Below are positions 8,918-32,612 of a DNA stretch of 32,612 nt, piece by piece. The DNA is taken from positions 1 through 32,612 of the forward strand of contig JAQWDH010000009.1 of NCBI GenBank assembly GCA_028705565.1. The letters are read 5' to 3'. The stretch comes from Patescibacteria group bacterium (lineage in GTDB: Bacteria; Patescibacteriota; Patescibacteriia; Magasanikbacterales; GWA2-37-8). The translations under genes were made by a program, and so were the position numbers. Below the pieces are notes generated by a model. The model was not told the origin of the DNA. It saw only the letters and a list, made by a program, of their open reading frames with translations, and made no database searches. Position 1 is the first letter of the stretch. Each line of letters starts with the position of its first letter.

Positions 8918-9505
8918 ATGCCAAACTTCAAAAAAGAAAGGACATATGTAATGGTTAAGCCGGACGGAGTAAAGAAGGGCTTAATCGGAGAAATCTTGCA
9001 TCGTTTTGAACAGCGAGATTTAAAAATCGTGGCTTTGGAGATGTTTCACGCCACCAAAGAACAAATTGATAATCATTACCCGAAGGACGAAGCGTGGATA
9101 AGGCGCCTTGGACAAAAAACTTTGGGTACTTACGAAAAATACGGACTTGACGCGGTAAAAGAACTTGGTACGAATGATGATTTGGAATTGGGAAAATTCG
9201 TGCGCGGATGGCTGGTGGAATATATGACTTCGGCTCCGCTTGTCCGTATGGTTGTGGAGGGAGTGCACGCGGTTGATATGGTTCGCAAAATTTGCGGAGC
9301 CACTTTGCCGTATCTCGCCGATATGGGCACAATTCGCGGCGATTATTCCAATGATTCGCCGGTTATCGCCAATATGGAAAAGAGGTCTGTAATGAATATA
9401 ATGCACGCCTCCGAGACTCCTGTTGAAGCCCAACACGAAATAGAGCATTGGTTCGGCGGAAGGGAAGAAGTGATCTTTGACTATAAAAGATACGGTGAAG
9501 AATAG
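8918..9505 (+). CDS. ndk: Nucleoside diphosphate kinase (extended form)
   Basis: Transfers the gamma phosphate between nucleoside triphosphates and diphosphates through a phospho-histidine. The N-terminal strand TYVMVKPDGVKKG with Lys14, the GTIRGDY motif (about 137-143) and the active-site segment NIMHASET with His163 identify the family. At 195 residues it is about 55 longer than the usual bacterial enzyme of roughly 140. Extra sequence sits at about 50-88 and again just before the active-site His. The usual HGSDS is HASET here, but His is kept. It has its own promoter and is followed at once by the promoter of a small RNA. Confidence 0.93.
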   Translation: MPNFKKERTYVMVKPDGVKKGLIGEILHRFEQRDLKIVALEMFHATKEQIDNHYPKDEAWIRRLGQKTLGTYEKYGLDAVKELGTNDDLELGKFVRGWLVEYMTSAPLVRMVVEGVHAVDMVRKICGATLPYLADMGTIRGDYSNDSPVIANMEKRSVMNIMHASETPVEAQHEIEHWFGGREEVIFDYKRYGEE

Positions 9506-9541: not shown

Positions 9542-9550
9542 TGGTATAAT
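9542..9550 (+). promoter_or_regulatory. Extended -10 promoter of the small RNA
   Basis: TGGTATAAT at 9542-9550 is a perfect extended -10 element (TGnTATAAT). A TTGACT at 9532-9537 is too close (7-nt spacing) and TTGACA at 9509-9514 too far (30 nt) to be a normal -35, which is acceptable for an extended -10 promoter. Start of transcription is expected near 9556-9558. Confidence 0.75.
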
Positions 9551-9553
9551 ACC

Positions 9554-9721
9554 TTTGTTTGAAGCGGCGGTTATAAATGTTCTACAAACAATCATAATGG
9601 TTAGCCAAATTTGTTTAGCCCGTGGGTTAAACGTGAGGCATACCACTTACAGTCACGGAACTCGTGACACCGCCTCTTATCAAACAAATCAATCCCGACG
9701 CAAGTTGGGATTGATTTTTTT
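9554..9721 (+). ncRNA. Structured non-coding RNA, unknown class (6S-like size)
   Basis: About 165 nt between an extended -10 promoter and a strong terminator, with no convincing ORF. The two ends pair: 9554-9561 with 9681-9688 (TTTGTTTG/CAAACAAA, 8 bp), then AAG/CTT, then GGCGGT/ACCGCC (9566-9571 with 9669-9674), 17 bp in all with a 2-nt bulge and one mismatch. Inside are three adjoining hairpins: GTTTAGCC-CGTG-GGTTAAAC (9613-9632), GTGAGG-CATA-CC..TTAC (9633-9650) and GTCACG-GAACT-CGTGAC (9652-9668), the last stacking on the closing stem. GTTC at 9579-9582 could pair with the GAAC loop at 9658-9661. I see no tmRNA, SRP RNA or RNase P signature. Length and closed ends would suit 6S RNA, but the multi-hairpin interior does not clearly match. 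Confidence 0.75.
9686..9721 (+). terminator. Rho-independent terminator of the small RNA
   Basis: ATCAATCCCGAC - GCAA - GTTGGGATTGAT, a 12-bp stem (one G-U pair) closed by a GNRA tetraloop and followed by seven T. The three A at 9686-9688 can extend the stem or instead belong to the closing helix of the RNA. Confidence 0.92.
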
Positions 9722-9752
9722 CCGGCAAAATGATAGATTAGGATTGATTTTA

Positions 9753-9765
9753 CGGGCTGTAGCGA
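9753..9765 (+). repeat. 13-nt copy of the tRNA-Pro 5' end
   Basis: CGGGCTGTAGCGA occurs here and again, identical, as the first 13 nt of tRNA-Pro at 9824-9836. Similarity stops beyond it. It could be a remnant of a duplicated tRNA or of an integration or recombination at the tRNA gene. The rest of 9722-9823 is AT-rich and holds nothing else I can name. Confidence 0.6.
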
Positions 9766-9823
9766 TTGCTTCTGATTTAATTTGCTATAAATAATTTTAT
9801 AAAATAATCAAATTAAATATTAT

Positions 9824-9896
9824 CGGGCTGTAGCGAAGTTGGTATCGCGCATGCATGGGGTGCATGAGGCCGCGGGTTCAAGTCCCGCCAGCCCGA
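9824..9896 (+). tRNA. tRNA-Pro (anticodon GGG)
   Basis: Complete 73-nt cloverleaf. Acceptor CGGGCTG/CAGCCCG with the C1-G72 pair usual in bacterial tRNA-Pro; D arm GCGA/TCGC; anticodon stem CATGC/GCATG with loop ATGGGGT, anticodon GGG; T arm GCGGG-TTCAAGT-CCCGC; discriminator A. CCA is not encoded. Confidence 0.96.
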
Positions 9897-9915
9897 CGAA
9901 CGAAGCGGAGATATA

Positions 9916-9971: not shown

Positions 9972-10724
9972 ATGTCCAAATATTACACGCCACAGCGAGT
10001 AAAATGTTTATATAATACGAGGTCTGACGAGCCGTTTAAGTTATCGCGGTCAAAGATTGATTTGTTTTTAAACTGTCAGCGATGTTTTTATTTTGACCGC
10101 CGACTTGGCGTTGGCCGTCCGCCCGGGTTTCCTTTTGCTTTGAATTCGGCAGTTGACCATCTTTTAAAGCTTGAATTTGATATTCATCGCGTGAACGGCA
10201 CGAAGCACCCATTAATTGAAAAATACGGAGTTGACGCGCGTCCTGTCGCTCACGAAGATTTGGACAAGTGGCGGCATAATTTTACGGGGATTCAATTTTT
10301 ACATAAACCAACCAATTTTTTGGTGTTTGGCGCGATTGATGATCTCTGGCAAAACTCCAAATGCGAATATATAGTTGTTGATTACAAATCCACTTCCAAA
10401 GATGAAGAAATAAACGAGCTTAACAAAGATTGGCAAATCGGTTATAAAAGGCAAATGGAAATTTATCAATGGCTGCTTCGTCAAAATGGTTACAAAGTTT
10501 CCGATACAGGATACTTTGTTTATTGCAACGGACAGACGGACCGAAAAGCTTTTGACGCCAAGCTTGAATTTGATGTTACTTTGATTTCATACAAAGGCGA
10601 CGATTCTTGGGTTGAAAAAACCATCAAAGAAGCTCATAAATGTTTAAACAGCGATAAAATTCCAAAAGCCGATGATGATTGTGATTATTGCAATTATATT
10701 AAAGCGGTAAATGGTAAAAAATGA
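9972..10724 (+). CDS. Cas4/RecB-like PD-(D/E)XK nuclease
   Basis: 250 residues of the PD-(D/E)XK (PDDEXK_1/Cas4-like) superfamily. The nuclease core shows GAIDDLW at 120-126 (catalytic Asp123), VVDYKS with the Asp137-x-Lys139 pair, and the helix QMEIYQWLL corresponding to motif QxxxY. Cysteines at 35, 38 (NCQRC) near the N-terminus and 237, 240 (DCDYC) at the C-terminus have the split spacing of a Fe-S cluster staple, as in Cas4 and AddB. Enzymes of this type resect or trim DNA ends. No cas1, cas2 or CRISPR array is present in the window, so a stand-alone repair or mobile-DNA role is likelier than CRISPR adaptation. The downstream reading frame overlaps its end. Confidence 0.82.
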   Translation: MSKYYTPQRVKCLYNTRSDEPFKLSRSKIDLFLNCQRCFYFDRRLGVGRPPGFPFALNSAVDHLLKLEFDIHRVNGTKHPLIEKYGVDARPVAHEDLDKWRHNFTGIQFLHKPTNFLVFGAIDDLWQNSKCEYIVVDYKSTSKDEEINELNKDWQIGYKRQMEIYQWLLRQNGYKVSDTGYFVYCNGQTDRKAFDAKLEFDVTLISYKGDDSWVEKTIKEAHKCLNSDKIPKADDDCDYCNYIKAVNGKK

Positions 10725-10752
10725 ACATTGTCGCGCGTCCAAATTAAAAGTT

Positions 10753-11046
10753 ATGTTTGAAATAAAAAAATCCAAAATTCACGGTAATGGATGTTTCGCG
10801 AGCGAGCCGATTAAAAAAGGAAAAACAATCGGCGCGGCTTTTGTAAAAATCAATGACACGGGAAACTGCGACGCGGATTATCAAAGAACAAAACTCGGAC
10901 AATTTGTGAATCATTCCGACAAACCGAATTTGAAAATTAAAAAAGATAATGGCAAGATTTTATTTGTCGCGAAAAACGCCATAGACGCGGGCGAAGAGTT
11001 ATTCGCGAATTATGAAGAATTTGGTTGGGAGGGCAAAAAAATTTAA
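10753..11046 (+). CDS. Small SET-domain protein
   Basis: 97 residues from the ATG at 10753; an upstream ATG at 10711 would overlap the nuclease gene and add 14 residues without domain sequence. SET signatures are KSKIHGNGCFA at the N-terminus, the cofactor-site motif FVNHSDKPNL, and AGEELFANYEEF at the C-terminus, which holds the conserved Tyr. It is a minimal SET fold (such proteins are usually about 100-130 residues). SET proteins are lysine methyltransferases in eukaryotes and in some bacteria; the target here is unknown, with ribosomal or DNA-binding proteins as candidates. It is followed after 18 nt by arfB. Confidence 0.82.
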   Translation: MFEIKKSKIHGNGCFASEPIKKGKTIGAAFVKINDTGNCDADYQRTKLGQFVNHSDKPNLKIKKDNGKILFVAKNAIDAGEELFANYEEFGWEGKKI

Positions 11047-15531: not shown

Positions 15532-15555
15532 CATATATTTTAAAAGGTGTATAAT
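15528..15555 (+). promoter_or_regulatory. Promoter of rplJ-rplL
   Basis: TTGACA (15528-15533, consensus), 16-nt spacer, TATAAT (15550-15555, consensus). The -35 overlaps the pyrH stop codon. This is the best promoter in the window, as expected for ribosomal genes, and produces a leader of about 180 nt. Confidence 0.88.
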
Positions 15556-15565
15556 ATGGTTGCTA

Positions 15566-15612
15566 TAGACAGCAGGTTCCCGAATTGACGGGATTAAATA
15601 TCCTGCCGAGGC
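15566..15612 (+). promoter_or_regulatory. Ribosomal protein L10 leader
   Basis: The block AGACAGCAGG...TATCCTGCCGAGGC matches the conserved part of the L10 leader known from Firmicutes and other bacteria. GCAGG (15572-15576) pairs with CCTGC (15602-15606), and CCCG with CGGG inside. The L10(L12)4 complex binds such leaders and represses its own operon. It lies about 12 nt after the -10 box and 130 nt before rplJ. Confidence 0.85.
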
Positions 15613-15657
15613 AATTGAGCTTTTTGCTTTTTTAAGGTCGAAATTGCTTGTGGTCTG

Positions 15658-15679
15658 TGGCTTTTATAGCCATTTTTTT
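15658..15679 (+). terminator. Possible attenuator hairpin in the L10 leader
   Basis: TGGCT - TTTAT - AGCCA followed by seven T. A short 5-bp stem, so weak alone, but its place between the L10-binding region and rplJ fits attenuation control. AGGTC near 15635 and GACCT near 15706 could pair as an alternative structure. Confidence 0.45.
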
Positions 15680-15741
15680 ATTCATATTTTTGTTGAATAA
15701 AAAAAGGACCTGTTATATCAATCAGTTAATTGCGATTGTTT

Positions 15742-16263
15742 ATGCCAAAATCAAGAGAACAAAAACAGACAACATTGAAATTACTCGCGTCGTGGCTGAA
15801 AGACGCCAAGTCAATTGTCTTTGCCAATTTTCAAGGTTTGAAAGTGTCAGAGGCGACTGTATTGCGTCGCGAGTGCCGAAAACAAAACATAAAAGTTTTG
15901 GCGACCAAAAAAACATTGCTTAAAAAGGCGTGCGAAGAATTGGGTTTAAACATTGAGCCTGAAAAATTCTCCGGCGGCGTGGCGGTGTTTATGGGCGTTG
16001 AAGACGAGGTCGCTCCCGCGAAGACCGTGGCCAATTTTGCCAAAACTCACGAGATTGTTTCTATTTTCGGAGGCATGCTTGAAGGCAAAATGGTGGATGC
16101 TTCGGTCGTTAAGTCGTTGGCATCTTTACCGAGCAAAGAAGCGCTTCTCGCCAAAATGGTTGGCGCGCTCAACGCGCCCGTATCAGGTTTCGTCAATGCC
16201 TTATCCGGCAATTTGCGAAACTTGGTCGGTGTATTGAACAATATCAAAGAAGCTAAAGTTTAA
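15742..16263 (+). CDS. rplJ: 50S ribosomal protein uL10
   Basis: Base of the ribosomal stalk that carries the bL12 dimers and recruits translation GTPases. 173 residues from the ATG at 15742 (MPKSREQK); an upstream in-frame TTG is not needed. The uL10 pattern is clear: [21 protein letters not shown], then [13 protein letters not shown], and GGVAVFMG, with the C-terminal helix ([16 protein letters not shown]) that binds bL12. It lies behind the L10 leader and 23 nt before rplL, as in nearly all bacteria. Confidence 0.97.
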
Positions 16264-16286: not shown

Positions 16287-16688
16287 ATGTCAGAAGAAAA
16301 AAAAGAAGTGATTGTTCCCGAAAAATTCAAATCGCTCGTGGAACAAGTTGAAAAAATGTCGGTTTTGGACTTGTCCGAATTGGTTAAAATTTTAGAAGAC
16401 AAATTTGGCGTGTCCGCTTCGGCCCCCGCCGCGATGATGGCCGCTCCGGCAGCCGCCGCCGCTCCGGTTGAAGAAAAATCGGAATTTGATGTTGAATTGA
16501 CAGAAGTTGGAGCGAATAAAATCAATGTCATTAAAGCCGTGAAAGAAATCACAGGCTTGGGTTTGGCTGATGCCAAGGCATTGGTTGACGGCGCTCCGAA
16601 AATGATAAAGACCGGCGTTAAGAAAGAAGAAGCCGAGGCAATGAAGAAAAAGATTGAAGAAGCCGGCGGTAAAGCCGTTTTGAAGTAA
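16287..16688 (+). CDS. rplL: 50S ribosomal protein bL12 (L7/L12)
   Basis: Stalk protein that contacts elongation factors. 133 residues: N-terminal dimerisation helices ([14 protein letters not shown]), an Ala/Pro-rich hinge (about 48-62, [14 protein letters not shown]), and the globular C-terminal domain with [20 protein letters not shown] and [13 protein letters not shown]. The domain is full length. It is followed after 15 nt by a terminator. Excess over uL10 is expected, but I see no separate promoter in the 23-nt gap. Confidence 0.97.
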
Positions 16689-24923: not shown

Positions 24924-27900
24924 ATGTCAAAAATTAAAAAAACCGGCCTTGGATTTATGATAGCGATTTTCGCTTTTTTCAGTATGTTCGGTTCGCTGTT
25001 TTTTTCAATTCGTCCGGCTCAAGCGCAGTTGCCTGTCACTATAACAACTTCACTTCCGGATACTGTAAAAGATTTAAAGGATATATTAATGAGTTTTTTG
25101 AAAGGCGCGCTTTTAAATGCTGTGATTCAGGCAGTAAGTTACGCCACTGATAAAATAGCTTACGAAGGAGCGGTTTGGATGGCTTCGGGAGGAAAAGGAC
25201 AATCGCCGATGGCGCACACGGAAAGTTTCGGCGATTTTATGGCGAATGTCGGAGACGAGGCGTTCGGAGTCGCTTTGGAAGAACTCGGCGAACCGTATGG
25301 TTTGAATTTATGCGAAGTTCCGGACCCGCAAATTGATTTGACTTTGCGTCTCGGCATCGGCTTAAACGCGCGCGCCGGAACAGCCCAGGCTCAACAAATT
25401 CCGAACTGCTCTTGGAGCCAATTCCGCGAAAATTGGAGCAGCGCGATTGACACTTGGCGAAGTCAATACGGTTCGCAGGACGCTCTTTTAAATCAATTGA
25501 ACGATTCAATTTCAGTTGACCAAAGCGATGTGGGAATTTATCTTGGCGCTTTGGCGAGAATCAATGATAGAGTGGTTGCCGAGAGAGAAGGCGAGGCGGC
25601 GCAGAGGACAGAGGACAGCGGTTTTAAGGCCCAAGTAAAACAAATATCAGATACCATTCTTACACCCGGCAATATGATAATGGCCGAAGCGCAAGCAAAT
25701 TTGCCGAGCGCGCAACAAGATAAATCAGCTGAAAATTTTGACGCTCAGCTTGCCGCGGCAGGCGATAACGCGTTTATGATTATTCCGACAATGCTAGCCA
25801 CATTTTTAAACACGCTTACTTCGCAGATGATTACGAATTATACCGAGAAAGGAATGTTTCCTTTTGGCATTGGAACTGAAGAAGGGGGCGGTTCTGATGT
25901 CGCGAGCGAATACGGTTCAATTTCTTCAGTAAGCGGACGGCGCGCCGCAGAGAAAATTTTCAGCGATTTGCTTACGACTAAAGTGTCTGCTGTGGAAAGA
26001 TACAATATCCTGCCGGAGTTGACAAATTGTCCCGACACTCCCGGTATTTACAATTGCGTTGCCGATGAATCTTTGGCGCAAGCCGCGCAAGAATCCACAA
26101 CCGGAAAACCGATTACAATTAAAGAAGCGATTGAAAAAGATTGGCTGCACGGAAATTGGAAATTGATTTCTCCGAATCGCGAAGCTGATAATATAAATAA
26201 AACTTGTTACCAAAGTTCTTATTGTTATGCAAATATAAAAGTTTTGCGCCAGTTGCGTTTATTGCCATTGGGTTTTGAGATCGCGGCTTTGAACAGCGAC
26301 CCGGATAATCCTTGGACATTGAAACAGGTGGTTGACGGGTTTAGCGATTGCAGTTATATCAAAGACAGCCAGGGGAATATCGCTGGAATCAATAATGATC
26401 CCGTTAACAAACCATTTTGTCATCTTATTGACCCGAATTGGGTGATAAAGATATCGCCTGTGCGGTGCAATGCGATGGTTTACGGTTCAACTCCGATGGC
26501 GGACGGATTGTCAATACGGAAAGAAGAATGCGTGGATATGCCGTCTTGTGTCGGTTTTAACACCGACGGCTCCTGCTACGCTTACGGATATTGCGCGCGT
26601 GAAAAAAATGTTTGGCGTTTTGACGCTGATAAATGCGAACCCGAATACGCCAGTTGCCGAGTTTTTAAAGACGAAGGCGGCAACCAGCTCGCTTATCTCT
26701 ATCGCACGCTGGACACTTCTTATTGTTCGCAGGACACGGAAAATTGCGCGGCATACAGTTTATATAAAAAGAACGGAAAATGGGCCGAGCCGGATTCCAA
26801 TTTTATAAATCAACAAATTCATTTTAATAAAAAAGTTTCCGCTTCTTGTTCGTCCGGTTCAGCCGGATGTTCGGCGTTTAAAATCGCTTCAGCCGACAGT
26901 TCATTGTATCTTAAAAAAGCGCCGGATTATTTGAAGTGTTATGATGCTGACACGGCTACGGAAAAAATTGACTGGCCGCAGACACAGGCCGATTTAACCA
27001 AAATGAAATTAAGCGAAGAATGTGGAGAATACGCCAAAGCATGTATTAAAGATGAGCTTGGTTGCAATTGGTACACATCGGTTTTAAATCCATCGCTGAA
27101 AATTCCGGGCAAATTCACGCCGGCTGCGGTTGAAGAAAATCAAATCGTTTGGAACGACCAGTGCGACGCGAAATGTTCCGGATACGCGGCTTATCGTGAA
27201 ATGCCAAGTAATTATTCCAACGGATTAAACACCGCTTACATCGTTCCTTCCACAGGACAATCATGTTCGTCGGAAGAAGAAGGGTGCGCGGCTTTCACAA
27301 ATTTGGAAACCACCGAGAGCGGTTTGGAAAAATCAGAATACTATTCATATCTGCGTCCCTGTATTAAACCAGACGCTAATAAACAGCAAACTTTTTATAC
27401 TTATGAGGGTTCCGTGGTCGGCGGTTATCAATTGAAAGTTTTTATTTTGGAAAAAGACGAACAAGGAGGTCCGAAATATTTTTATCGCGCAGCTGATGAT
27501 ATAAATTTATATACTACGATGTGCTCGGAAGATTTGTATAAAAAAGGTTTGGCGAGTTTGGACTGCCGGCAATTCAATGACGCGCAAGGAAATGTTTTTT
27601 ACAAACTGCTTTCAAAAACAATCGCGGTTTCAGAAAAATGCGTTTCTTATCGTTTGAATAGCACTGAATTATACGCGGTCGCCGCGGCAGACGCGACAGC
27701 TTGCTCAAATATGAACGGCGTGTGGAGAAACAACGAATGTAAAGTATGCTTCCAAAATGGCGAATACAGAGACGAATTTTGTTTTTACTCCGGTTTGCCG
27801 CAGGGTGTTGCAAACAACGCGGGCGAAAGCAAAGGTTGTTCATCGGCAGTTGATACTTGCCGAGCGTATAAAGGCAACGCAGGAAATAATATAAAATTAA

Positions 27901-30900
27901 TTTATGAAAATGATTTTGAAATCACAGGAGAAGCCGTGAACAATTGGTCTGCAAAAACTGGACAAATTTCTTTGTCCCCTGAAGCCACCCGTGTCGGAGG
28001 ACACTCTTTGAGCTATGTGAATCAGAACGCGGATTCGGTCTCTTTGAATAATTTAAGTTTGAAAGCCGGAAAGAGTTATGATTTGACTTTTTGGGCAAAA
28101 GCCGGCGCCGGAAAAATCACCGTGAGTTTAAACAGCGGTGTTTTTGGCGTTGTAACTCCTGGCGACACTTGGCAATATTATCATCTAGGGCCAGTTGAAT
28201 TGACGGGCGCGGATTCAGGCGCGAATTTATCTTTCGCTTTGGAAAAAGGAGGAAGGATATATCTGGATAATTTGCGTTTAACGGAAATCACCGATTATAT
28301 TTATTTGGTAAAAAAATCTTTAGTTGTTGACCCTGTTTGCGACAGCGACGCGGACGACGGATTGCCGGGCGAAGCGTTGGGATGTTCGGAATACAAAACA
28401 GCTGATAATAATTCCATATTTTTAACCAATTTCAGTTATCTTTGCCGCGAAGACGCGATCGGTTGTGTCGGTTTGGTTGACACATATAATACGCCATCTG
28501 ACGCAAAACCGCGCGCGTATAATGTTTGGCTTGCTGGTGAAAGCGGATCTACTCCCGAAATAACAATTGGAGGAAAAATTTTCTCTTGCCACATTTCAGT
28601 CGGCGAAAACGGATGTTATACAAATATTTTTGGATACATAAAAGAACAGATTGAAACCGCCGGAGGATTGTTCAATGCTTCGTCGGTTTATATTTCAGCA
28701 GATACTTCCGTGAACAGCCCGATTTATTTGGTGGCTATCAAAGAAGCGACCTGCAATCAAGCTGATTTGGGTTGTTCAAAAGCCGGACTTAAAAAATCCA
28801 CACAGGCAGGTTATCAATACGAAGATGTTTTGATTAAAAACGACCCGGCGACTTATGAACAGACATTGTGCCAGAGCGAAGCTGTCGGTTGTCGCGCTTA
28901 TTCTTCGGCGCAAGGAACATATTATTTTAAAGCTCCGGAAATGACCGGACAAAAAGTTTGTTCTTATAAAAAAGATGTTACCGTGAATGGAGTAAAAACC
29001 AGCGGATGGTTTTGGAAAAACACGGGTATTTGCTCAAACAATTCAACAAGATATTGTTCCGAGAATGGCGATTGCGCGACCGGAGGAACTTGCCAGGGCA
29101 TAGGCGACCAACCATGTTATCCGAATTATCTTTTGGCAGGAGGAAATTATGGAATTTGGTCTTTCGGAGACAAAGCGGAATACAAAAATTTTGTCGGCGA
29201 ATGTTCTATAGAAGCTGACGGATGTTCAAAATTTGTTGACCATTCAGACAATGACACCGCGTATTATTTTTTGGAAAACAATAAATTTAAAAATAAACAA
29301 AGCGAATGCAGAGGCGAGGCGAGCCAAAGCTACGGATGTATTTTGCTTGATAAAACGGATTCGCCAAATAAATCGTGGAGCACCGCTGCGACTTATCTCG
29401 CGAGCGCGCGCAAGAGTTATGATTTGGTTGCTCCGGAATCAAATGAAAACAATGACGCGAATGTAATTATAAAAGTAACGAAAGACAGAGAGTGCGGAGA
29501 GTGGCTTTATTGCAACCAGGTGCGACCGGTAAAAAACCCTGAAACAGGAGAAGTCGCTAATAAATGTTACGGGTTGGGTGTATGCGAAAAATCCCAGCCC
29601 GGCGAAGGAAGCAGCCAATGCGCAAAAGATATTACTTCAAATTGGGAAGGCAAAAATCAAATTTTAACGGAAAATGTTTATCGCGGACGCGATGTTTCGT
29701 GGAGAGGAATGGATTATTCCGGCTATTCGTTGTTTAACCAATTCCAACCTGCTGATTTGAACACGGTTGTTTATAGTGAAGGAGGCAAGGAATATAGCAT
29801 TTTGGCGATTTATAAAAATGAAACCTGTTCGGGCGCAGATGACGGAAAAAATTGCGGAAAAGACAATAATGGCGATGGCAATAAAGACGGAATATGCAGT
29901 AAAAAAATGTGTTATTATCCTGTTTCTGGAATTACTCCCGGCGGAGCGCAAGGGCTTGTAAAAGATAAATTGGTTGAGACATCTGTTTGTCGCGGTTATC
30001 CTGAAAAAGACAGTCCATATCCGTCCTCCATACTTTCAAGCGACGGCAGGTTTAAAACAGGTTTTGATAAAGTGAATTTATGCAACGGAGGCGATTGCGA
30101 TTGCAGTTATCTTAAAAAATCATACGGTTCAAACGATGAAAAATCAATGTATTACGAGTCGGCAGATTTAGCCGGAGACCGCGTGTGCAGTGGAGGAAAA
30201 TATAATGATGTTTTTTGCTCAGAAGATGGAACGACAACCGCGGAAGAAGGTTATGTGACGAAAGAAAATTGTCAGAATGAAGGCGGATCGTGTTTGAGCG
30301 CGCATCGCCAGTCGTATCTTACGGGCTGGCAGGGTTATTGTTTGGAGCGCGATATGAGGCGAAAAATCAATGGCGACCCAAAACAGAATTCTTGTTTGAC
30401 GTGGCTGCCTTTGGACGCCGGTTCAGGCATTAAAGATATTTTTTACGAAAACACTTCCGCCGGTTATTTGGCGAATAATAATCAGGATAGGTATGTGTGT
30501 TTGTATAACGAATCGCCGTTGGATAAAAATTATTCAAAAGTGTTCGTTGATATGAATGGAAGTTCGGAAGGCGGAATGGTTAACGCTTTTGTAGATGTCG
30601 GAAGTAATTATAACCAATATGGCGATTTATTAGATGAGGATAATTATGTAAGGGGAGTTGACCCGAAATTGCAAATAATTATGGACAGTGGAAAATTTGG
30701 GGTTAATTTTACTTCTTTGGCAAAGGCGGTTATAAATAAAAGTTATATAATGTCAGATGAGAACCTCCGTTCAAATGAGAACAGCCGTCTTTATAGGGAA
30801 TGGTTTATACCTTTGGGTCGCGATTATGTAATCCCCGGCAATAACGGCAATGAAGATTTTATCAAAAAAGAAGAAATCAAAAGGATTGATGTGTATTTTG

Positions 30901-32612
30901 ACGGAGAAGATCAGCTCACTTCAATAACTCCAAACATTGTTTCTTTTGAAACAGACGGCGTTAATCTTGTAAATTCAACTATTTGGAAGGGCAAGGAGTA
31001 TGGCAAATTTAATTCCGGTATGATTGACAATGGAAAATATGAATATTGGGAGTGGCAAGGTTTTGTGGAAAATACCGAATGCAGTATAAATAATATTTCA
31101 GACCCAATCTTTAATTTGTTTCCAAATTTATACAAACAACCAAAATGGAATACCCAGGGAGCAACCGCGAACCAGGGATTGCTTGATTTAAGCAACGGAG
31201 ATGGAGGTATGTATTACAATGGCGCTGATTCCGAAGGAAGTTGCAGCGGTTTAGGAATAAGGGCGGTTTTTGACAAAGATAATTATTTTAAGGGTTTTTG
31301 GATGTTTATGCACCACAACGCGGAAGGCGCGGGACACGAGGGATTTTTCTTTGTAATTCATTTTACAAATGGCAGATGCAAAGTGATGGCTCAAGTGTCG
31401 CAAAAAAGCAACAGCGCGTTTTCTTTGGACACAAAACCGATAACATGGCAGATGCGATTGGATGAATTAAAGATTAATCCCGTAAAAATACAAGAAGAAA
31501 AATTTCGTGTCAACCGTAAAAAGAATTTTAATTTTATTGAATACGGTTTGACCAGCTCGCTTGTTAATCTGCCAAAAAATTTAACAGTTCCAATTTGGGT
31601 TGATCCGTTTAATCCGAATGAAGCGGCTTTGGATTTAAGTCAAAAACCAGCCGGTGTTTACAAGGGTGGTATTCCGATGGCAGTATTTACTAATTCAAAC
31701 GCCGCTCCGAGCACCCTTGATACCGCAGGAAATTGCGGCGGCGATGATACGCATCCAGTCGGTTGTTTATTGGAAGAAATGTTTGCCAAGATTTATAAAA
31801 TATGGACTTGGAATTCAAGCGAAAAAAAATACGATGAAAATTTAAATTCAGTAAACGATGCCGCCGCGTTGCGCAGAAATTCCATCCCTCAAATCGCCGC
31901 GCCGGATTTCAGTTCCTGTATCAATAAAAGCGCGGGTTCCGGATGTAGAATAGCTAAAAAAAGCGCTTTCGCGGTGAATGATAAATATAACGAAGATGTT
32001 TATTTATCAAGCGGAAATTCGGCGTTCGTTCGCTTTTACGCTTGGGCCGACCCGATGCAAATGCCGTTAAGGCGAATCAAGATTGATTTTGACAATGGCA
32101 GTTTTCCATTCCAAAGCCAGAATGACGCGCAAAGCAATTATAAACCGCGTTGCGACGCGCCGAATGGAAAATTTTGTTCAGCTGATAATAAAATTCCTTG
32201 CGCCACTAACGCGGAATGTATAAATTTATCAACTCCGGCGAGGGGATGTTCATCAGAAGACGCGACACATCCACAATCAAATTTCGGCAACACCACGGAA
32301 ACTGGTTGCGTGCCGGATTATTTTGAAGTGAGCACGAATTATGTCTGTGATTTGGAAGGGTATGCGAACATAGATGATGTTCCGGCGGCAAAAAGATACG
32401 GAAGTCCGGAAGGCGGCCATATAGCGGTAATGAAAACAACTGTGTCAGAGAACTATCAAATCGCGCTTACTCCTAAAGCCCGCGCTCTCGGACTTTCAGA
32501 CGGCTCGCTCGTCTGCGCTTTCAAACCAAAAGTGCAGGTAATGGACAATTGGGGCTGGTGCAGTGGGAATTGCGGTGGAGCGGAGGGGTGTTATAAAGAA
32601 TTTATTGATAGT
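24924..32612 (+). CDS. Giant Cys-rich exported protein, 5' part (truncated by window end)
   Basis: An uninterrupted frame from the ATG at 24924 to the last base: 2,563 codons and no stop. The N-terminus is a signal peptide (basic start, hydrophobic core, RPAQA cut at about 33), so the rest is exported. Residues about 35-400 are mostly helical and Cys-poor. From about 26.0 kb on, short Cys motifs recur, typically C-x5-GC-x-x-[F/Y/L], e.g. CSSGSAGCSAF, CSSEEEGCAAF, CREDAIGCVGL, CQSEAVGCRAY, CSIEADGCSKF. At 27.9-28.3 kb a jelly-roll, carbohydrate-binding-like domain is visible (YENDFEITG ... YLDNLRLTEI). KDNNGDGNKDG near 29.87 kb is a TSP3-like calcium loop. Many disulfides are likely. No catalytic motif seen. 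Probably a surface adhesin, fibre or part of a secretion apparatus. Confidence 0.85.
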   Translation, partial: MSKIKKTGLGFMIAIFAFFSMFGSLFFSIRPAQAQLPVTITTSLPDTVKDLKDILMSFLKGALLNAVIQAVSYATDKIAYEGAVWMASGGKGQSPMAHTESFGDFMANVGDEAFGVALEELGEPYGLNLCEVPDPQIDLTLRLGIGLNARAGTAQAQQIPNCSWSQFRENWSSAIDTWRSQYGSQDALLNQLNDSISVDQSDVGIYLGALARINDRVVAEREGEAAQRTEDSGFKAQVKQISDTILTPGNMIMAEAQANLPSAQQDKSAENFDAQLAAAGDNAFMIIPTMLATFLNTLTSQMITNYTEKGMFPFGIGTEEGGGSDVASEYGSISSVSGRRAAEKIFSDLLTTKVSAVERYNILPELTNCPDTPGIYNCVADESLAQAAQESTTGKPITIKEAIEKDWLHGNWKLISPNREADNINKTCYQSSYCYANIKVLRQLRLLPLGFEIAALNSDPDNPWTLKQVVDGFSDCSYIKDSQGNIAGINNDPVNKPFCHLIDPNWVIKISPVRCNAMVYGSTPMADGLSIRKEECVDMPSCVGFNTDGSCYAYGYCAREKNVWRFDADKCEPEYASCRVFKDEGGNQLAYLYRTLDTSYCSQDTENCAAYSLYKKNGKWAEPDSNFINQQIHFNKKVSASCSSGSAGCSAFKIASADSSLYLKKAPDYLKCYDADTATEKIDWPQTQADLTKMKLSEECGEYAKACIKDELGCNWYTSVLNPSLKIPGKFTPAAVEENQIVWNDQCDAKCSGYAAYREMPSNYSNGLNTAYIVPSTGQSCSSEEEGCAAFTNLETTESGLEKSEYYSYLRPCIKPDANKQQTFYTYEGSVVGGYQLKVFILEKDEQGGPKYFYRAADDINLYTTMCSEDLYKKGLASLDCRQFNDAQGNVFYKLLSKTIAVSEKCVSYRLNSTELYAVAAADATACSNMNGVWRNNECKVCFQNGEYRDEFCFYSGLPQGVANNAGESKGCSSAVDTCRAYKGNAGNNIKLIYENDFEITGEAVNNWSAKTGQISLSPEATRVGGHSLSYVNQNADSVSLNNLSLKAGKSYDLTFWAKAGAGKITVSLNSGVFGVVTPGDTWQYYHLGPVELTGADSGANLSFALEKGGRIYLDNLRLTEITDYIYLVKKSLVVDPVCDSDADDGLPGEALGCSEYKTADNNSIFLTNFSYLCREDAIGCVGLVDTYNTPSDAKPRAYNVWLAGESGSTPEITIGGKIFSCHISVGENGCYTNIFGYIKEQIETAGGLFNASSVYISADTSVNSPIYLVAIKEATCNQADLGCSKAGLKKSTQAGYQYEDVLIKNDPATYEQTLCQSEAVGCRAYSSAQGTYYFKAPEMTGQKVCSYKKDVTVNGVKTSGWFWKNTGICSNNSTRYCSENGDCATGGTCQGIGDQPCYPNYLLAGGNYGIWSFGDKAEYKNFVGECSIEADGCSKFVDHSDNDTAYYFLENNKFKNKQSECRGEASQSYGCILLDKTDSPNKSWSTAATYLASARKSYDLVAPESNENNDANVIIKVTKDRECGEWLYCNQVRPVKNPETGEVANKCYGLGVCEKSQPGEGSSQCAKDITSNWEGKNQILTENVYRGRDVSWRGMDYSGYSLFNQFQPADLNTVVYSEGGKEYSILAIYKNETCSGADDGKNCGKDNNGDGNKDGICSKKMCYYPVSGITPGGAQGLVKDKLVETSVCRGYPEKDSPYPSSILSSDGRFKTGFDKVNLCNGGDCDCSYLKKSYGSNDEKSMYYESADLAGDRVCSGGKYNDVFCSEDGTTTAEEGYVTKENCQNEGGSCLSAHRQSYLTGWQGYCLERDMRRKINGDPKQNSCLTWLPLDAGSGIKDIFYENTSAGYLANNNQDRYVCLYNESPLDKNYSKVFVDMNGSSEGGMVNAFVDVGSNYNQYGDLLDEDNYVRGVDPKLQIIMDSGKFGVNFTSLAKAVINKSYIMSDENLRSNENSRLYREWFIPLGRDYVIPGNNGNEDFIKKEEIKRIDVYFDGEDQLTSITPNIVSFETDGVNLVNSTIWKGKEYGKFNSGMIDNGKYEYWEWQGFVENTECSINNISDPIFNLFPNLYKQPKWNTQGATANQGLLDLSNGDGGMYYNGADSEGSCSGLGIRAVFDKDNYFKGFWMFMHHNAEGAGHEGFFFVIHFTNGRCKVMAQVSQKSNSAFSLDTKPITWQMRLDELKINPVKIQEEKFRVNRKKNFNFIEYGLTSSLVNLPKNLTVPIWVDPFNPNEAALDLSQKPAGVYKGGIPMAVFTNSNAAPSTLDTAGNCGGDDTHPVGCLLEEMFAKIYKIWTWNSSEKKYDENLNSVNDAAALRRNSIPQIAAPDFSSCINKSAGSGCRIAKKSAFAVNDKYNEDVYLSSGNSAFVRFYAWADPMQMPLRRIKIDFDNGSFPFQSQNDAQSNYKPRCDAPNGKFCSADNKIPCATNAECINLSTPARGCSSEDATHPQSNFGNTTETGCVPDYFEVSTNYVCDLEGYANIDDVPAAKRYGSPEGGHIAVMKTTVSENYQIALTPKARALGLSDGSLVCAFKPKVQVMDNWGWCSGNCGGAEGCYKEFIDS

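Follow-up and report, generated by a model that had tools for sequence, protein, structure and literature searches.

The window, by which we mean the entire 32,612-nucleotide stretch of DNA that was analyzed, belongs to a patescibacterial genome of 0.93 Mb with an estimated completeness of 98%; the genomes of its relatives measure 0.4 to 2 Mb, sizes that would fit Parcubacteria. Between ndk (8918-9505) and a tRNA-Pro gene (9824-9897), positions 9542-9721 fold with a computed energy of -66 kcal/mol, compared to -37.2 ± 4.2 kcal/mol for 200 dinucleotide shuffles (z -6.8), none of which folded as well. The features of this segment and its upstream neighbor are as follows.

8918..9505, + strand: ndk, nucleoside diphosphate kinase, the conserved upstream neighbor (Pfam NDK, E 1e-35)
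9542..9550, + strand: extended -10 promoter element TGGTATAAT, read in the sequence; similar -10 boxes precede the RNA in relatives
9557..9719, + strand: predicted 6S-like RNA transcript of ~163 nt including the terminator (fold z -6.8; covariance-model homologues)
9557..9571, + strand: closing stem, 5′ strand, pairing with 9669-9685 (present in 38 of 38 homologues, z < -3)
9579..9583, + strand: S1, inner end of the closing stem, GUUCU, pairing with GGAAC (S1:S3 covariation; own-versus-permuted z -8.7)
9584..9598, + strand: 5′ central bubble ACAAACAATCATAAT, with a conserved UUCUACAA motif
9599..9644, + strand: apical arm, consisting of P2 (GG..GCC/GGC..CC) and P3 (9613-9620/9625-9632), with covariation
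9645..9656, + strand: 3′ central bubble, which contains most of the 3′-bubble hairpin's 5′ arm (GUCACG, 9652-9657)
9652..9668, + strand: predicted extended 3′-bubble hairpin GUCACG/CGUGAC with S3 in its loop, resembling the E. coli-type release hairpin
9657..9661, + strand: S3, 3′ strand of the inner closing stem, GGAAC (S1:S3 covariation; own-versus-permuted test)
9669..9685, + strand: closing stem, 3′ strand, pairing with 9557-9571
9686..9720, + strand: intrinsic terminator with a 14-bp stem, GCAA loop and U tract (hairpin 9686-9717); terminators follow the RNA in relatives

A reading of the sequence without database searches (the sequence-only reading) had described this segment as a compact, highly structured RNA gene forming a complete transcription unit, with an extended -10 promoter, a GNRA-capped terminator and no gene inside. 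The fold energy and the presence of the RNA's own promoter and terminator, both of which recur in relatives, bear this description out. Judging from the position of the -10 box, transcription would start near 9557. A simple consensus scan for promoters and terminators listed neither for the RNA at 9557-9719. The only overlapping open reading frame on the + strand, a 79-codon frame at 9555-9794, has no Pfam match, and relatives conserve the helices through compensatory changes and show no conserved frame; we therefore rejected a protein-coding gene at this position. We likewise rejected a phage origin, as the RNA has no match among 50,697 phage records. At this locus, an Rfam search of the window returned no family at gathering score and none that was meaningful at E < 10.

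Several other features of the window are recorded here in their own right. A short copy of the tRNA-Pro 5′ end (CGGGCTGTAGCGA) is found at about 9754-9768, in the spacer that separates the RNA from the tRNA gene (9824). Positions 10711-11046 encode a small SET-domain protein (Pfam E 3e-11); SET domains are uncommon in bacteria. A ribosomal protein L10 leader at 15545-15687 (RF00557, 50.5 bits, over the cutoff) directly precedes the L10 and L7/L12 genes (15730-16263, 16287-16688), and a frame that stays open for 2563 codons or more (24924-32612) runs off the end of the window.

Homologues of the RNA were collected in several rounds. BLAST with the core recovered five homologues among the first 57 relatives. 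Within the order, a covariance model of the core (R1) had matches in 40 of 86 genomes; within the class, in 26 of 380. A second model, R2, built from 38 sequences and extended to the inner closing stem and the 3′-bubble hairpin, matched 62 of 285 class genomes and 65 of 193 across the phylum. With a third, R3, built from 65 sequences, 147 of the 379 genomes sampled from the phylum gave a match, always a single one. These genome counts are lower bounds, because the large sets were scored with strict filters. Three genomes (G082, G377, and G483) had two matches each in the R1/R2 searches, which may be second gene copies or assembly duplicates. One pattern scan of genome contigs yielded two records only, from Butyrivibrio and an alphaproteobacterium; we take both as chance matches because R2 matches neither.

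Comparison of these homologues demonstrates both the structure and its covariation. In the 65-sequence alignment, which was fitted to the model, 93.3% of cells are paired and 410 cells carry changes on both sides of a pair (shuffles, 116.6). The covariation score of 0.743 drops to 0.218 on shuffling and to no more than 0.158 when partners are slid; the covariation is strong, with compensatory changes of the kind proposed earlier as a check on the RNA. The same picture emerges from a MAFFT alignment (A3) that was not fitted to the model, with 91.0% paired and a covariation score of 0.583 (0.230 shuffled, at most 0.172 slid). The outer closing stem, assessed separately as a duplex, has z below -3 in all 38 sequences (mean -6.2). 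In the apical arm, P2 is paired in 99% of cells and P3 in 95%, with double changes at all eight P3 pairs. Between the two helices lies a conserved asymmetric internal loop, in which columns A41, A43, and U44 opposite U69, G70, and G72 (numbered as in A3) are invariant. Three inner hairpins had been proposed: the middle one, 9599-9644, is conserved and covarying, and the third, 9652-9668, occurs in a subset of sequences and has a fold z of -3.7 and a stacking-score z of 3.9 in the window, but the first (~9578-9590) is not conserved, and we discarded it, as this stretch is the open 5′ bubble. A proposed loop pairing of 9579-9582 with 9658-9661 survives as a conserved, covarying helix, although it is the inner end of the closing stem and not a loop contact.

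6S RNA acts as a decoy by which starving bacterial cells shut down their RNA polymerase. The window sequence itself has no match to the 6S family model (RF00013; SsrS) even at E < 10, which is the part of the earlier assignment to "no recognised class" that holds. That assignment fails at the level of the family, because RF00013 matches diverged relatives over its full length. Seven homologues found with R1 or R2, independently of Rfam, are matched across model positions 1-187 (L038, 38.9 bits; L037, 35.9; L035, 31.2; L095, 40.9; L097, 39.2; L100, 30.8; L102, 26.0). Each of these matches coincides in position and strand with the R1/R2 match and spans the full model length; the RF00013 scans of those loci gave no match away from the R1/R2 positions. 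Conversely, R2 recovers loci fetched with RF00013 (L057, E 2.8e-12; L055, 3.8e-12; L058, 9e-5), none of which was used to build it. One further RF00013 match, L053 in genome G052, may be due to chance because R2 misses it and points elsewhere in that genome (G052:C3). No homologue reaches the RF00013 gathering score (best 40.9 bits compared to 46.4), and the model is over its cutoff in 0 of 380 genomes of the class, while the control genomes (E. coli, B. subtilis, Caulobacter, and Synechococcus) are positive; the gathering cutoff is a detection threshold and not a biological criterion. Seven homologues matched by RF00013 and three RF00013-fetched loci matched by R2 together demonstrate, through intermediates, homology between this family and 6S RNA. 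The family also displays 6S architecture, namely a closing stem, an open central bubble, an apical arm and a 3′-bubble hairpin, and computation predicts the alternative release helix typical of 6S RNA, as a collapse helix in most relatives and as an extended hairpin in the window. On these grounds, we hold with high confidence that the locus encodes a divergent 6S RNA (SsrS). Comparison with the 6S family, which the earlier reading had named as a way to check its claim, gives a positive answer for 6S and counts against an unknown class.

That reading had also set the RNA apart from tmRNA, SRP RNA, and RNase P RNA. Consistent with this, tmRNA is encoded on contig C19, and C16 carries an RNase P RNA candidate. 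SRP RNA is set aside because the RNA matches no SRP family (RF00169, RF01854) and because of the evidence for 6S. The RNase P RNA candidate (G000:C16:6908-7257) scores 55.1 bits against a class A cutoff of 100 bits and appears to be another diverged housekeeping RNA. Models of the small and large bacterial SRP RNAs gave no match anywhere in this assembly (G000), and its SRP RNA may have diverged too.

In 6S RNAs, the 5′ bubble serves as a template from which polymerase transcribes a short product RNA that runs into the closing stem, after which the freed 3′ strand refolds and polymerase is released. Two refolded forms have been described (PMC8876501). One, the central bubble collapse helix of B. 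subtilis 6S-1 and A. aeolicus 6S, joins the freed strand to the distal 5′ bubble; the other, in E. coli 6S, is an extended hairpin formed within the 3′ bubble. In own-versus-permuted tests of the homologues, S1:S3 gives z -8.7 and S2:S3, where S2 is the distal 5′ bubble, gives z -10.0; both pairings use the same 3′ strand. Among the 30 sequences that lack the extended hairpin, S2 pairs with its own S3 at a mean of -7.05 kcal/mol and with the S3 of others at -3.22 kcal/mol (z -9.9; 0 of 5,000 permutations). This signal is absent in the eight extended-hairpin sequences (z -0.8), which are the window and seven relatives. In these, a preference for the sequence's own S3 is shown by the 3′ bubble instead (z -2.9; 31 of 5,000 permutations). 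This is a weaker test than that of S2:S3, because the eight were chosen after inspection of the folds. The collapse helix occurs in none of the eight but in 23 of the other 30 (Fisher p 1.3e-4, uncorrected for relatedness). For the window RNA, the computed energy is -58.6 kcal/mol for the S1:S3-paired state and -63.8 kcal/mol for the hairpin state. The comparisons demonstrate two mutually exclusive helices in most relatives, the collapse helix and the closing stem, and in the computed foldings, both known release arrangements occur within one family.

Most probably, the RNA works in the same way as 6S RNAs elsewhere. The long closing stem, open central bubble and apical arm would imitate an open promoter, so that RNA polymerase carrying the main sigma factor could bind the RNA in place of DNA and be kept inactive during nutrient shortage. 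Once nucleotides are available again, polymerase would use the 5′ bubble as a template and extend a short product RNA into the closing stem; by analogy with known 6S RNAs, this product would start near C9585, with the predicted sequence 5′-GUAGAACAUUUAU... The product RNA would occupy the 5′ strand of the closing stem and free the 3′ strand, which could then pair with the distal 5′ bubble (the collapse helix, in most relatives) or with the 3′ bubble (the extended hairpin, in the window), and this refolding would release polymerase. For the window RNA, polymerase binding, product RNA synthesis and a physiological role are what we infer from its known counterparts.

We considered whether other readings might account for these data. 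Of 48 loci compared, 28 have an ndk homologue within the retrieved flank. In most loci of the window's own taxonomic family, ndk is directly upstream on the same strand, as it also is in three loci from other families of the class (L040, L046, and L058, the last of which was fetched with RF00013); in several more loci, it is farther upstream. We know of no link between ndk and 6S RNA elsewhere. The position of the RNA just downstream of ndk in many genomes might suggest a cis-regulatory leader or 3′ UTR element, belonging to ndk or to the downstream gene. This seems extremely improbable: the RNA has its own -10 box and terminator, ndk is ~1 kb distant in some loci and, in L015, sits on the opposite side and strand, and the downstream genes vary between loci.

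The two other candidates concern the kind of RNA. Resemblance by convergence, in which a distinct structured class had arrived at 6S-like switching helices, would fit the lack of any Rfam match to the window alone and the conserved internal loop and short apical arm, which differ from the RF00013 consensus. However, seven out of seven RF00013 matches in homologue loci fall on the RNA, on the same strand and over the full model length, and L055 and L057 have longer apical arms that bridge the short-arm and RF00013 forms; we regard convergence as very improbable. We also think it unlikely, if slightly less remote, that the RNA is of the Ms1 type, which has a similar shape, binds the polymerase core without sigma and does not undergo product-RNA release. 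Known Ms1 is structurally related to 6S RNA yet bound to core enzyme (PMC9130861), which gives this idea its precedent. The conserved alternative helices that reuse the closing-stem strand fit the 6S product-RNA release cycle instead, and of the Rfam families, RF00013 fits the diverged members best. The locus holds a real RNA gene, very probably one for a divergent 6S RNA, a variant of a known RNA rather than an unknown class.

6S RNA is a global regulator of transcription, and the Rfam model alone would score it as absent from a whole class of small-genome bacteria. Among the openly licensed papers searched, we found none reporting 6S RNA in this class. Under strict filters, R3 finds one copy in ~39% of the genomes sampled across the phylum, which suggests that many reduced genomes keep what looks like a polymerase-sequestering regulator. 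It is about as likely as not that these RNAs constitute a phylum-wide 6S subclass missed by Rfam. A short apical arm bearing an invariant asymmetric internal loop would then stand in for the long arm of other 6S RNAs, and within one family the release switch would have changed between the Bacillus-type collapse helix and the E. coli-type 3′-bubble hairpin. Two release switches in one family would offer a natural experiment on how 6S RNA frees polymerase.

Among known systems, Ms1 RNA of Actinobacteria shares a 6S-like shape and is a polymerase-binding regulator; it binds core polymerase, a mode that nothing here favors. The window family shares with RF00013 6S RNAs (E. coli 6S, B. subtilis 6S-1) the closing stem, open 5′ bubble, apical arm and 3′-bubble hairpin, as well as an alternative release helix, a single free-standing gene and, in its diverged members, a GGG/CACCCACCU-like junction. 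It differs in that the window RNA is shorter (~129 nt from closing stem to closing stem), the longer paired arm of the consensus is replaced by a truncated apical arm with the conserved asymmetric internal loop, and its members score below the Rfam cutoff and are often found beside ndk. Most relatives resemble B. subtilis 6S-1 and A. aeolicus 6S in pairing the distal 5′ bubble with the closing-stem 3′ strand (PMC8876501), whereas the window RNA lacks this collapse helix (z -0.9). Instead, the window and seven relatives resemble E. coli-type 6S RNA in having a 3′-bubble hairpin that takes up the closing-stem 3′ strand, although in the window this hairpin is 6 to 7 bp long and S3 lies for the most part in the loop, not the arm.
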